NCBI GenBank assembly: GCA_029243595.1
Contig: JAQWRQ010000011.1
Coordinates: forward strand, 1-64,000
From: Gammaproteobacteria bacterium
GTDB taxonomy: Bacteria > Pseudomonadota > Gammaproteobacteria > PS1 > Pseudothioglobaceae
DNA: 64,000 nucleotides
Direction of reading: 5' to 3'
The first letter of the stretch is position 1. Each line of letters begins with the position of its first letter. Positions 3,656 through 7,436 of the stretch are shown piece after piece. The notes under the pieces are model-generated. The model was given only the letters and a program-made list of their open reading frames with translations. It had not been told where the DNA came from and did not search any database. Made by a program: the position numbers and the translations under genes.

Positions 3656-4003
3656 ATGAAGAAAACTATTTCTTCTATCTCAGCAGTTGTAACATTGGCG
3701 ACATTATTCATGATGCCAACACAAGCAGGTGCTAAAGAGATGACGGACGAAGAGGTTACTTTCGGTCGTAAAGCAGGTAACTGCTTAGCATGTCATATGA
3801 TTCCAGGCGGTAACTTGCCAGGCAATATTGGCCCACCACTACTTGCGATGAAAGCAAGATATCCAGATAAGGCAACACTAAAAGCGCAAATCAGTGACGC
3901 TACGGTTAGAAATCCAGATTCAATCATGCCTCCTTTTGGTAAGCATGGCATCTTGACAGACAAGCAGCTTGATCAGGTTACAAATTACATTTATTCTAAA
4001 TAA
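3656..4003 (+). CDS. soxX: Thiosulfate-oxidation c-type cytochrome SoxX
   Basis: SoxX is the small mono-haem subunit of the periplasmic SoxXA cytochrome, which joins thiosulfate to the Cys of the SoxYZ carrier. The 115-residue precursor begins with a signal peptide (KKTISSISAVVTLATLFMM, cleavage near QAGA/K). It has one haem motif, C43-L-A-C46-H47, and a likely distal Met91 in SIMPPFG. A strong ribosome-binding site (GAGGAG) lies 8 nt before the ATG. It is the first gene of a compact soxX-Y-Z-A-K operon; soxA, encoding its partner, is fourth. The small size and MPPFG motif are typical of SoxX. Confidence 0.93.
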   Translation: MKKTISSISAVVTLATLFMMPTQAGAKEMTDEEVTFGRKAGNCLACHMIPGGNLPGNIGPPLLAMKARYPDKATLKAQISDATVRNPDSIMPPFGKHGILTDKQLDQVTNYIYSK

Positions 4004-4013
4004 GGAGAAGACG

Positions 4014-4457
4014 ATGAAAAGAAGATTATTTTTAAAAAGCGCAATGGCAGGTTCTGCAGTTGCAACAGCAGTAGGCGCAGGCTTACTAACACCATCAATG
4101 GCATTTGCTAACTCAGCAGACTTTAAAGCTAAATCAGACGCAGCAGGCGCTTCAGCAGCTGGCGCAGGTAAAGGTTCTTTTAAGTTTAAAGCCCCTAAGA
4201 TTGCTGAAAACGGTGCAGTAGTGCCAATGACAGTAGATGCTTCTAAAATGGAAGGCGTAACTAACGTTTCTTTCTACGTTACTGCAAACGGTACACCATT
4301 AGCAGCTTCGTTTAATTTGTCTGGTGCTCAAGGTTATGTTTCTACTCGTATTAAGATGGGTAAAACTTCCAATGTAGACGCATTAGTTACTGCAGGCGGC
4401 GCGACAACTAAAGTATCGCAAGAAGTGAAAGTAACAATTGGCGGCTGTGGCGGTTAA
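4014..4457 (+). CDS. soxY: Thiosulfate-oxidation carrier protein SoxY
   Basis: SoxY is the covalent substrate carrier of the Sox system: thiosulfate and its oxidised forms ride on the C-terminal Cys. The 147-residue precursor starts with a twin-arginine signal (MKRRLFLKSAMAG), so it is exported folded by Tat, probably together with SoxZ, which has no signal. The last residues, GGCGG, are the swinging-arm motif with Cys145. The ATG at 4014 is chosen because AAGGAGAAG lies 6-7 nt upstream and the Tat signal begins there. The frame is open further upstream but only overlaps soxX. Spacing to soxX is 10 nt. Confidence 0.95.
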   Translation: MKRRLFLKSAMAGSAVATAVGAGLLTPSMAFANSADFKAKSDAAGASAAGAGKGSFKFKAPKIAENGAVVPMTVDASKMEGVTNVSFYVTANGTPLAASFNLSGAQGYVSTRIKMGKTSNVDALVTAGGATTKVSQEVKVTIGGCGG

Positions 4458-4505
4458 TAATTAATTAATTAATAAATTAAATAAAAAATTAAAGGAGAAT
4501 TAAAA

Positions 4506-4808
4506 ATGGCAAAGATCAAATTAAAGCCTAAAGCTAGAAAAGGTGTTATCGGTATCAAGTGTTTAATTAAACACCCAATGGAAACTGGTTTACGTAAGAA
4601 AAAAGGCAAATTAGTACCTGCTAACCACATTGTGCACATGGTTGTATCTCACAACGGCACTACAATAGTTGATGCAGATATTGGTAGCTCTGTTTCTAAA
4701 GACCCATACTTTAAATTCAACGTTGCTGGCGCTAAAGGCGACACAATCGAACTTAAGTACAAAGACAGCAAGGGCAAAACAGGTTCTGCGACTGCGAAGT
4801 CTAAGTAA
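4506..4808 (+). CDS. soxZ: Thiosulfate-oxidation protein SoxZ
   Basis: SoxZ forms the SoxYZ heterodimer that carries sulfur intermediates. The 100-residue protein has no signal peptide, as usual for SoxZ, and should be co-exported with Tat-dependent SoxY. It is a basic beta-sandwich protein with the family pattern IKCLIKHPMETGLRKK near residues 20-35 and VPANHIVHMV near 38-47. AAGGAGA lies 7-8 nt before the ATG. The soxY-soxZ gap contains an AT-only repeat of TTAA/ATTA units (4456-4482). Confidence 0.94.
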   Translation: MAKIKLKPKARKGVIGIKCLIKHPMETGLRKKKGKLVPANHIVHMVVSHNGTTIVDADIGSSVSKDPYFKFNVAGAKGDTIELKYKDSKGKTGSATAKSK

Positions 4809-4832
4809 CTTTATATAATTGAGGAGAGATCA

Positions 4833-5654
4833 ATGAAAAAACTAATAACTGCAGTAGTCAGTATAGGTTTAATGGCTGGCGCTACATCTGCAATTGCAGA
4901 TATGGAAGCTGACCGTAAAGCCTTTGTTGGCCACTTTAAGTCCATTCAACCAAGCGTTGAGTTTGCAGACTACACTAATGGTGTTTATGCTTACGATGAA
5001 GGCTCTAGAGGTCAGTTTGAAGAGATTCTAGACGGCATCCCACCGTATGAAGAAGCGGTGGAAAAAGGCGCAGCAGAATTTGAAAAGTTTGGTTTAGCCA
5101 AATGTGCGGCACTTGCAGATCCTGCAGCGGCGCGTGTAAAGCACCCATACTATGATGATGCAGCTGGTACAGTAGTAACACTAGAAGGTACAATCCGTAA
5201 GTGTTATAACGAACAAACTGGCAAGAAGATGGGCCCGATGAAAGGTAAAGTTGCCCGCATTAGTGCTTGGATTTCTGATCAAGCAGCTGGTGAAAAGGTC
5301 AACGTAAAGGTTGAGTCTGATGGTGCAAAAGCAGCTTACGCAAGAGGTAAGGCTACTTTCTATGCTAAGCGTGGTCAGTTCAATATGTCATGTGCAGATT
5401 GTCACGTATACAACGCTGGTAAGAAAGCCAGAGCTGATATCTTGTCACCTGCATTAGGCCACACAACACACGTGCCAATGTATCGTGCAAAGTGGGGTAG
5501 TTTAGGTACATTACATCGTCGTTATGGTGGCTGTTACAAAAACATGCGTGCTAAGCCTTTAATGGCTCAAAGCCCAGAGTATCGTGATATGGAGTTCTTC
5601 CATCAAGCGATGAGCAATGGCCTTGAGATTACTGACGCTCGTTACAGAAAATAG
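4833..5654 (+). CDS. soxA: Thiosulfate-oxidation cytochrome SoxA, mono-haem type
   Basis: SoxA is the catalytic subunit of SoxXA. The 273-residue precursor has a Sec signal (KKLITAVVSIGLMAGATSAIA). Only one haem motif is present, C187-A-D-C190-H191. The active-site haem ligand is expected to be C234 in RRYGGCYKN, which in this family is a cysteine persulfide. The first haem site of di-haem SoxA proteins is absent. Instead C91 and C124 stand 33 residues apart, close to the disulfide that replaces this haem in the mono-haem Starkeya type. That pairing is inferred from spacing. GAGGAGAG precedes the ATG. The stop codon overlaps the ribosome-binding site of the next gene. Confidence 0.94.
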   Translation: MKKLITAVVSIGLMAGATSAIADMEADRKAFVGHFKSIQPSVEFADYTNGVYAYDEGSRGQFEEILDGIPPYEEAVEKGAAEFEKFGLAKCAALADPAAARVKHPYYDDAAGTVVTLEGTIRKCYNEQTGKKMGPMKGKVARISAWISDQAAGEKVNVKVESDGAKAAYARGKATFYAKRGQFNMSCADCHVYNAGKKARADILSPALGHTTHVPMYRAKWGSLGTLHRRYGGCYKNMRAKPLMAQSPEYRDMEFFHQAMSNGLEITDARYRK

Positions 5655-5660
5655 GAGAGT

Positions 5661-5984
5661 ATGATGAAAAAATTACTACTAACAACCTTAACTGTATTTG
5701 CCTTTTCAGCACAAGCTGATTATTTAGGTAGCTCACATAACTGGAACGACGGCTCATCTGATCCGTTTAAAGCGGCACTTGCTGCTGCTGAGTCTGGTTA
5801 TGCTGCAAACCTAAAAGCTCACATGGCTTGGCGTGATACAGGCAAGATGATCAAAGAAGCTAAAAAACTACAGGCATCAGGCAATACTGCTAGTGCACTA
5901 GCTTTAGCTAATAAAGCTCACACACAAACAGTAAATGCGGCAGAGCAAACTGTTGGTGCGAGTTCAGCTGGTCCTAGATTCTAG
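5661..5984 (+). CDS. soxK: SoxXA-binding protein, SoxK/SAXB-like
   Basis: This 107-residue secreted protein has a signal peptide (MKKLLLTTLTVFAFSAQA) and a short helical mature part. It carries the pattern AWRDTGKMIKEAKKLQASGN, then ALALANKAHTQTVNAAEQ. WRDT followed by an alanine-rich helical hairpin matches my recollection of the SoxXA-binding proteins (SoxK, SAXB) that enhance SoxXA activity in Chlorobium and Allochromatium. Position supports this: it follows soxA by 6 nt and is the last gene before the operon terminator. AGGAGAG overlaps the soxA stop codon. Two consecutive ATG codons (5661 and 5664) are possible starts; the first has the better spacing. The assignment rests on the motif and on context. 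Confidence 0.75.
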   Translation: MMKKLLLTTLTVFAFSAQADYLGSSHNWNDGSSDPFKAALAAAESGYAANLKAHMAWRDTGKMIKEAKKLQASGNTASALALANKAHTQTVNAAEQTVGASSAGPRF

Positions 5985-6002: not shown

Positions 6003-6033
6003 AAAAAATACCCCTTTATTGGGGTATTTTTTT
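6003..6033 (+). terminator. Intrinsic terminator of the sox operon
   Basis: The arms AAAAAATACCCC (6003-6014) and GGGGTATTTTTT (6021-6032) pair over 12 bp around a 6-nt loop and run into T residues. It lies 18 nt after the soxK-like stop codon and closes the soxX-Y-Z-A-K unit. Confidence 0.93.
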
Positions 6034-6470: not shown

Positions 6471-6902
6471 ATGTTTAGCGAAACTGTAAAAAATAAAATC
6501 GATCAAGCGGGTGACTTCTTGATTGAGGCATTTCATTTGGTGGGTTTATTTGTAATCGGCGGTACGGTAGTTTGGTCGGCAGTTAGTGAGTATCTACTGA
6601 TCATGCAGCACGAATCAGGCTTCGCTTCTCTTAAAGATATTCTATTAATGTTTATTTATCTAGAACTAGGTGCGATGATTGGTATCTATTTTAAAACTCA
6701 TCGCTTACCGGTGATTTTCTTAATCTTTATTGCCATTACTGCTATCACACGATTTATGGTGATCGACATGAAATCTCTAGTCGCTAATGACAGTTTTAAT
6801 TTGATTATTATGGTTACTTCTATTTTAATTTTAACTATTTCAGCAGGTGTTTTAAGATTTACTGAAAAAAAGTATGACACTTCAAATGAGTGTTGCACTT
6901 AA
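6471..6902 (+). CDS. psiE: PsiE-family (phosphate-starvation-inducible E) membrane protein
   Basis: This 143-residue inner-membrane protein has four predicted hydrophobic segments (about residues 20-45, 58-76, 80-97 and 105-127). The central stretch YLELGAMIGIYFKTHRLP, followed by VIFLIFIAITAITRF, is the hallmark of the PsiE family (named from Escherichia coli PsiE, a phosphate-starvation gene of unknown mechanism). A short Cys-rich tail (NECCT) ends the protein. The ribosome-binding site is strong (GGGGAGAG). It is separated by 22 nt from the methionine-rich gene downstream and shares a nearly identical ribosome-binding site with it, so the two form a two-gene operon ending at the terminator at 7412. 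No Pho box is recognised upstream. Confidence 0.8.
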   Translation: MFSETVKNKIDQAGDFLIEAFHLVGLFVIGGTVVWSAVSEYLLIMQHESGFASLKDILLMFIYLELGAMIGIYFKTHRLPVIFLIFIAITAITRFMVIDMKSLVANDSFNLIIMVTSILILTISAGVLRFTEKKYDTSNECCT

Positions 6903-6924
6903 ATAACACAAGGGGAGAGGTAAA

Positions 6925-7392
6925 GTGAATACGGCAATTAAGGTTGGGGCGTTATTGATTGGTGGTTACGCCGCTTATGGTATGGGGTCTTTTATGTATA
7001 CCATGGGCGATGACATGACCAACATGACCAAGTCAGTTGGACAAATGACTCAAGACGTTCACTCTATGGCAAAAAATATGAACGGCATGGCGCTTAATAT
7101 GATGCAAATGGCGCAAAGCATGGTAGATGGTCAAAAGAAAATGGGTGACGATTTTGCCAATGTTGCCAGAGATATGAATATCATGACTCGTTCAATGGTG
7201 TCGATGGGTAGAGATATGAATGGTTTAGGTGCGCAGATTTCAGGCATGAATGTTAATATTAAAGAAATGAACGGCTCAATGTCGCGCATGAGTGGCGACA
7301 TGTCAACCATGAATAATTCGATGTCGGGTATGCGTTACGACATCAACAAATTCACCAAGCCTGAAAATATCATGATGCCTTGGATGCGTTAA
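6925..7392 (+). CDS. Methionine-rich membrane-anchored coiled-coil protein of unknown function
   Basis: I do not recognise a named family. The 155-residue product starts at GTG 6925 behind GGGGAGAGG. Residues 5-20 (IKVGALLIGGYAAYG) form one hydrophobic N-terminal anchor. The rest is a long amphipathic helix in which 31 of 155 residues are Met. Core positions follow a 4-3 heptad rhythm: 20, 24, 27, 31, 34, 38(V), 41, 45(V), 48, 52, 55, 59, 62, 66, 73. After a phase change they continue 77(F), 80(V), 84, 87, 91, 94, 98, 101(L), 105(I), 108, 112(I), 115, 119, 122, 126, 129, 133, 136, 140(I), 143(F). About 26 of the Met residues therefore sit in the hydrophobic seam. There are no Cys and only one His. 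It is co-transcribed with psiE. Possible roles are a flexible Met-zipper scaffold, a metal-binding protein or an oxidant sink; none is shown by sequence. Confidence 0.8.
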   Translation: MNTAIKVGALLIGGYAAYGMGSFMYTMGDDMTNMTKSVGQMTQDVHSMAKNMNGMALNMMQMAQSMVDGQKKMGDDFANVARDMNIMTRSMVSMGRDMNGLGAQISGMNVNIKEMNGSMSRMSGDMSTMNNSMSGMRYDINKFTKPENIMMPWMR

Positions 7393-7411: not shown

Positions 7412-7436
7412 AAACCGCCCTTTGAGGCGGTTTTTT
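7412..7436 (+). terminator. Intrinsic terminator after the psiE / Met-rich operon
   Basis: AAACCGCC (7412-7419) pairs with GGCGGTTT (7426-7433) over a 6-nt loop and runs into T6. It lies 20 nt after the Met-rich gene. Confidence 0.92.

Follow-up and report, generated by a model that had tools for sequence, protein, structure and literature searches.

The window, by which we mean the whole 64,000-nt stretch of DNA analysed, carries a gene for a methionine-rich protein (the Met gene, its product the Met rod). As in the rest of the window's own genus, this gene adjoins a psiE-family gene and lies downstream of a sox operon. The locus comprises the following features:

3656 to 5984, + strand: sox operon
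3656 to 4003, + strand: soxX
stop at 4457, + strand: soxY
4506 to 4808, + strand: soxZ
4833 to 5654, + strand: soxA
5661 to 5984, + strand: gene for a SoxAX-binding-protein-like product (below the curated cut-off, E = 2e-12)
6003 to 6032, + strand: terminator-like hairpin 3′ of the sox operon
6471 to 6902, + strand: psiE-family gene, 143 aa (PF06146, E = 3.4e-19), ending 22 nt before the Met gene
6912 to 6917, + strand: RBS-like sequence GGGGAG, read from the sequence, 7 nt 5′ of the GTG
6925 to 7392, + strand: Met gene, 155 aa, GTG start, with orthologues
6937 to 6993, + strand: predicted membrane helix, about residues 5–23, N-in/C-out from the charge bias of 83 family members
6982 to 7143, + strand: Met heptad segment 1, residues 20–73, Met at 13 of 16 core positions
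7153 to 7353, + strand: Met heptad segment 2, residues 77–143, Met at 13 of 20 core positions
7339 to 7389, + strand: conserved C-terminal tail DINKFTKPENIMMPWMR, residues 139–155
7412 to 7433, + strand: terminator-like hairpin 3′ of the Met gene

No terminator-like site was found between psiE and the Met gene, and the hairpins at 6003–6032 and 7412–7433 flank the pair, which probably forms a co-transcribed two-gene unit apart from the sox operon. Methionine makes up 0.20 of the Met ORF (31 of 155 residues, as the initial annotation had counted), compared with a window mean of 0.031 and a runner-up value of 0.061 (58 ORFs of at least 100 aa). The protein contains no Cys and a single His (His46, in HSM), and its C-terminal residue is Arg. 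An antisense gene over the same interval is ruled out by several stops in the reverse frame. We also rejected a phage or plasmid source, since a PHROGs search gave coiled-coil noise only and no plasmid match was found.

Met recurs with a periodicity of 3.52 residues (spectral power 24.0, against a maximum of about 12 over 5000 same-residue shuffles). Exactly 26 of the 31 Met, the number first estimated, occupy a and d positions of one continuous helix, and the two core registers described earlier, at residues 20–73 and 77–143, are separated by a single stutter from 73 to 77. The ten core positions without Met carry V, V, G, F, V, L, I, I, I and F, and the five non-core Met are residues 1, 60, 150, 151 and 154. 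Hydrophobic residues are almost confined to the core of the helix, and the protein shows the continuous hydrophobic a/d heptads of a coiled coil. An AlphaFold2 monomer model built from 6 sequences predicts one long helix from residue 3 to 144, at moderate confidence (mean pLDDT 69, pTM 0.27), and the single N-terminal membrane anchor proposed at the outset corresponds to a real hydrophobic segment.

The Met gene is present in Thioglobaceae (the SUP05/Thioglobus/Ruthturnera group) and in several unrelated gammaproteobacterial families. In the core alignment of 14 homologues (39–85% identity), the 26 core-Met columns hold 364 cells, of which 349 are Met, 11 Ile, 2 Thr, 1 Leu and 1 Val; substitution by polar residues is thus limited to the 2 Thr cells, with 13 cells taken by I, L or V, and the seam is not freely replaced. 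Nine distant members share with the window protein 94% of its core Met, 87% of the remaining core residues and 27% of the helix residues outside the core. V38, V45 and G69 are invariant in the 14-sequence alignment. The distance from M20 to M73 is 54 residues in 14/14 sequences, while M20 to D139 spans 120, 127 or 134 residues, segment 2 being exactly 7 or 14 residues longer in some relatives, which means that indels in the rod come as whole heptads. Together with the retention of Met, these indels are strong evidence for a coiled coil of fixed register and for selection on Met itself. To judge from the alignment, the Met side chain is probably the object of selection, with 96% of core Met retained against 27% identity on the surface. 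A Met core so strictly conserved is unexpected for a natural coiled coil.

The core group belongs to a wider family of Met-rich rods. The two profiles are joined by hhalign (99.5%, E = 2.3e-22), a score that coiled-coil composition may inflate, and the shared tail is specific. Wider members, mostly 160–320 aa, have the same plan as the core group, in which a cytoplasmic N-terminus is predicted to lead into a single membrane helix, followed in the periplasm by about 120 helical residues and a Pro-containing tail such as RPMSFINRFMPW; the window protein likewise has a membrane helix, a helix of about 120 residues and a C-terminal D[IV]N..P tail. Members also occur outside the class Gammaproteobacteria, and the window's genome encodes two more, on contig C27 and in an aroB-gatC locus on C51. 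The order aroB-(Met-rich rod)-gatC-gatA is kept across Thioglobaceae genera (L114, L013-L029). The ParA-type members (L120/L139, L121, L126, L129/L140, L133, L062/L143), which come from at least two classes, have a gene for a ParA-like ATPase immediately upstream, and one of them (L143) also adjoins a dynamin-like GTPase gene. Together, such genes could form a system by which sulfur globules are positioned in the periplasm.

Across 83 family members, the 15 residues that precede the membrane helix contain 3.0 Lys/Arg and the 20 that follow it contain 1.4, and the net charge changes from +1.2 to −0.7. This bias indicates an N-in/C-out orientation, by which the rod should be periplasmic. The cytoplasmic N-terminal part ranges in size from next to nothing to far more than 100 residues, and 120.4 ± 9.7 residues separate the membrane helix from the tail. 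At 1.5 Å per residue, about 120 helical residues extend for about 18 nm, which is close to the depth of the Gram-negative periplasm, suggesting that the rod span matches the compartment that it would cross.

No curated family covers the Met ORF: the best Pfam match, DUF1664, reaches 21.6 bits (cut-off 34.6) and the best NCBIfam match, IcmG/DotF, 24.1 bits (cut-off 200). Weak Pfam and NCBIfam matches to Arfaptin, Fib_alpha, DotF and SMC, all below cut-offs, were discarded as coiled-coil noise, PF17228 (sulphur globule protein) is absent among the Pfam matches, and a search of solved structures returned generic coiled-coil matches only. Two envelope proteins that gave weak profile matches are nevertheless comparable in form. 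Lpp (Braun lipoprotein; PF04728, E = 0.12, below cut-off) is a periplasmic coiled coil, but is about 56 aa long, carries a lipid anchor and is linked to peptidoglycan through its C-terminal Lys, whereas the Met rod has a membrane helix and a Met core and lacks both the lipobox Cys and the C-terminal Lys. The coiled-coil tube of MmpL5 is also a long coiled coil outside the inner membrane, but it is part of an RND transporter, and the Met rod has no transporter domain.

The genomic context of the family points to sulfur. In a class sample of 369 gammaproteobacterial genomes, SoxY, common in the sample as a whole (190/369), was found in 42 of 44 family-positive genomes and 148 of 325 others (Fisher p = 2e-11, OR 25, with kinship ignored). 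PsiE, taken as a comparison marker, is more weakly associated (29/44 against 115/325; p = 2e-4, OR 3.5). Within Thioglobaceae, fccB occurs in 8/13 carriers and 6/70 other genomes (p = 7e-5). Four loci (L034, L036, L037, L110) carry nap-(soxYZ)-Met-DUF302-like-fccAB clusters with napGHAB/napF. In other genomes the Met gene follows a multihaem cytochrome gene, fccA and fccB, in that order (G168), or lies near sat/apr, soxY and a multihaem cytochrome gene (G253), and a family gene is found downstream of a rhodanese gene (G137). In three lineages (G323, G452, G119), sulphur globule protein genes (PF17228, above cut-off) occur in the vicinity of family genes; the family genes concerned are of the wider family, apart from a tail remnant in G323, in the order sgp-psiE-(Met)-napDAGH...-fccA-like cytochrome. 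The aroB-gatC paralogues and the members in G280 and G050 have no obvious sulfur gene nearby. Neither fccB nor NapA was found in the window's genome (assembly 93% complete), yet the Met gene is kept, which rules out flavocytochrome c and Nap as obligatory partners and leaves Sox. The neighbouring sox operon, noted at the outset, has proved a more general clue than psiE.

To our knowledge, how sulfur oxidisers hold, move and remobilise periplasmic zero-valent sulfur is poorly understood. The anatomy of the Met rod is well supported by its sequence, from which oligomerisation and a periplasmic location may also be predicted; its genomic context lends moderate support to participation in sulfur metabolism. 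We tentatively propose, with a probability of roughly 0.42, that the protein is an inner-membrane-anchored, periplasm-crossing, homo-oligomeric coiled coil with a mostly Met core that serves periplasmic sulfur oxidation, most likely by contacting zero-valent sulfur or its globules. Anchored in the inner membrane, the rod would span the periplasm with its conserved tail at the far end and would serve the Sox and flavocytochrome c machinery. It may contact or hold zero-valent sulfur, as S8, polysulfide or a globule surface, and sulfur might even be held within the rod core; alternatively, the rod could act as a tether at the inner membrane for globules or for enzymes that oxidise sulfur. Cultured Ca. 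Thioglobus autotrophicus has sulfur globules between the inner and outer membranes and four putative sgp genes (PMC6509183). Encoded beside fccAB, sox and, in relatives, sulfur-globule genes, the rod family is a candidate component for sulfur handling.

A rather unlikely alternative is that the coiled coil acts as a general envelope strut that sets the spacing or stiffness of the periplasm, with Met providing packing plasticity and the need arising from globules that deform the envelope rather than from sulfur binding. The near-constant rod length across the wider family, the whole-heptad indels, the broad paralogues without sulfur neighbours and the ParA-like and dynamin-like genes adjoining the ParA-type subfamily are all consistent with such a function. 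A purely mechanical core should however let Met drift to Leu, Ile or Val, whereas 96% of the cells are Met and specific V, I and G positions are fixed.

That the thioether seam itself binds sulfur is speculative, but coiled coils with S8-binding cavities are known. The coiled-coil stalk of tetrabrachion (RHCC) binds S8 in hydrophobic cavities (PMC9698212) and, like the Met rod, is membrane-anchored, but it is a right-handed coil lined by Leu and Ile from the archaeal S-layer of Staphylothermus marinus, with no sequence relation shown. It is improbable that the bore of an oligomeric rod is lined by the Met seam and binds S8 or polysulfane, or conducts it from the face of the inner membrane to periplasmic globules or the outer membrane and back; were this true, many sulfur oxidisers would possess a sulfur-handling nanotube.

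The seam might instead act as a sacrificial redox sink or sensor whose Met would be oxidised by reactive species of oxygen, chlorine or sulfur and then repaired, as proposed for MrpX. MrpX/BcrX are MXKDX repeat peptides encoded with MsrPQ (PMC4623255, PMC8315932) and resemble the Met rod in being Met-rich and probably periplasmic; high Met in such a protein, in organisms of oxic-sulfidic interfaces, fits this role, as does the one MsrB gene in the window's genome. In a search of 57 genomes, outside whose detection unknown periplasmic Msr types lie, MsrP was however missing from the window's genome (G000) and from 11/11 Thioglobaceae carriers, while it was present in 9/25 relatives without the Met gene, and MsrPQ-type Met cycling was accordingly rejected. 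The initial interpretation is upheld in part: the long amphipathic helix with a Met seam behind one anchor stands, since neither of the outcomes named in advance as refuting it, free polar replacement of core Met or a model other than a long helix, was observed, and reversible Met oxidation by the known periplasmic system is not supported. Unlike MrpX/BcrX, the Met rod is a heptad-bound helix, and a sink would need neither a strict heptad register, nor fixed V, G and I positions, nor whole-heptad indels; core Met should also be less exposed than surface Met. We consider this role quite improbable.

The link to psiE drawn at first holds in part. The two genes are adjacent and probably co-transcribed in the window, their adjacency recurs in two unrelated families (G230/L100 and G323/L138), and PsiE is present in 29 of the 44 family-positive genomes, as would be expected if the Met rod formed a complex with the PsiE-family membrane protein, as its partner or regulator, and the two served the envelope in some way that has nothing to do with sulfur. 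We find this hardly probable: psiE lies elsewhere in other Thioglobaceae genera that carry the Met gene, which excludes PsiE as an obligatory partner in general, it is decayed in G024, and its association is weaker than that of SoxY (OR 3.5 vs 25). At L138:7449-8458, a sulphur globule protein gene lies just upstream of psiE, near the family-member remnant.

Equally doubtful is a soft-metal chelator that would bind Cu(I) or Ag(I) through MxxM/MxxxM ladders in the manner of SilE, a periplasmic, Met-rich protein with spaced Met and HXXM silver sites (PMC10080550): the i,i+3/i,i+4 Met ladders could in principle coordinate Cu(I), but the HxxM motif is absent from the Met rod, which has no Cys and its sole His in HSM, none of the copies examined showed a neighbouring gene recognised as a copper or silver gene, and metal sites do not obviously require fixed V, G and I core positions.

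Some further observations concern the surroundings and fate of family genes. Two genes from the second Met-rich paralogue, both in the window's genome and in a close relative, lies a gene for a secreted protein that is rich in Met, Gln and Gly and belongs to no family (L113:3989-4462, − strand; L144:4341-4811, + strand). A Gly/Gln-rich secreted protein encoded near the C27 paralogue was rejected as a sulfur-globule protein for want of a PF17228 match. DUF302-like genes seem recurrent beside family members (L110:9022-9492, L147:5243-5713, L056:2086-2481), the first scoring just under the Pfam cut-off. Finally, the Met gene is decaying through internal stops and fragmentation in several Thioglobaceae genomes (L111, L112, L038, L020), some of them single-contig assemblies of 1.2–1.5 Mb; decay is seen in G427 and G428, where the pieces in G427 lie inside a nap-fcc cluster of the kind described above.
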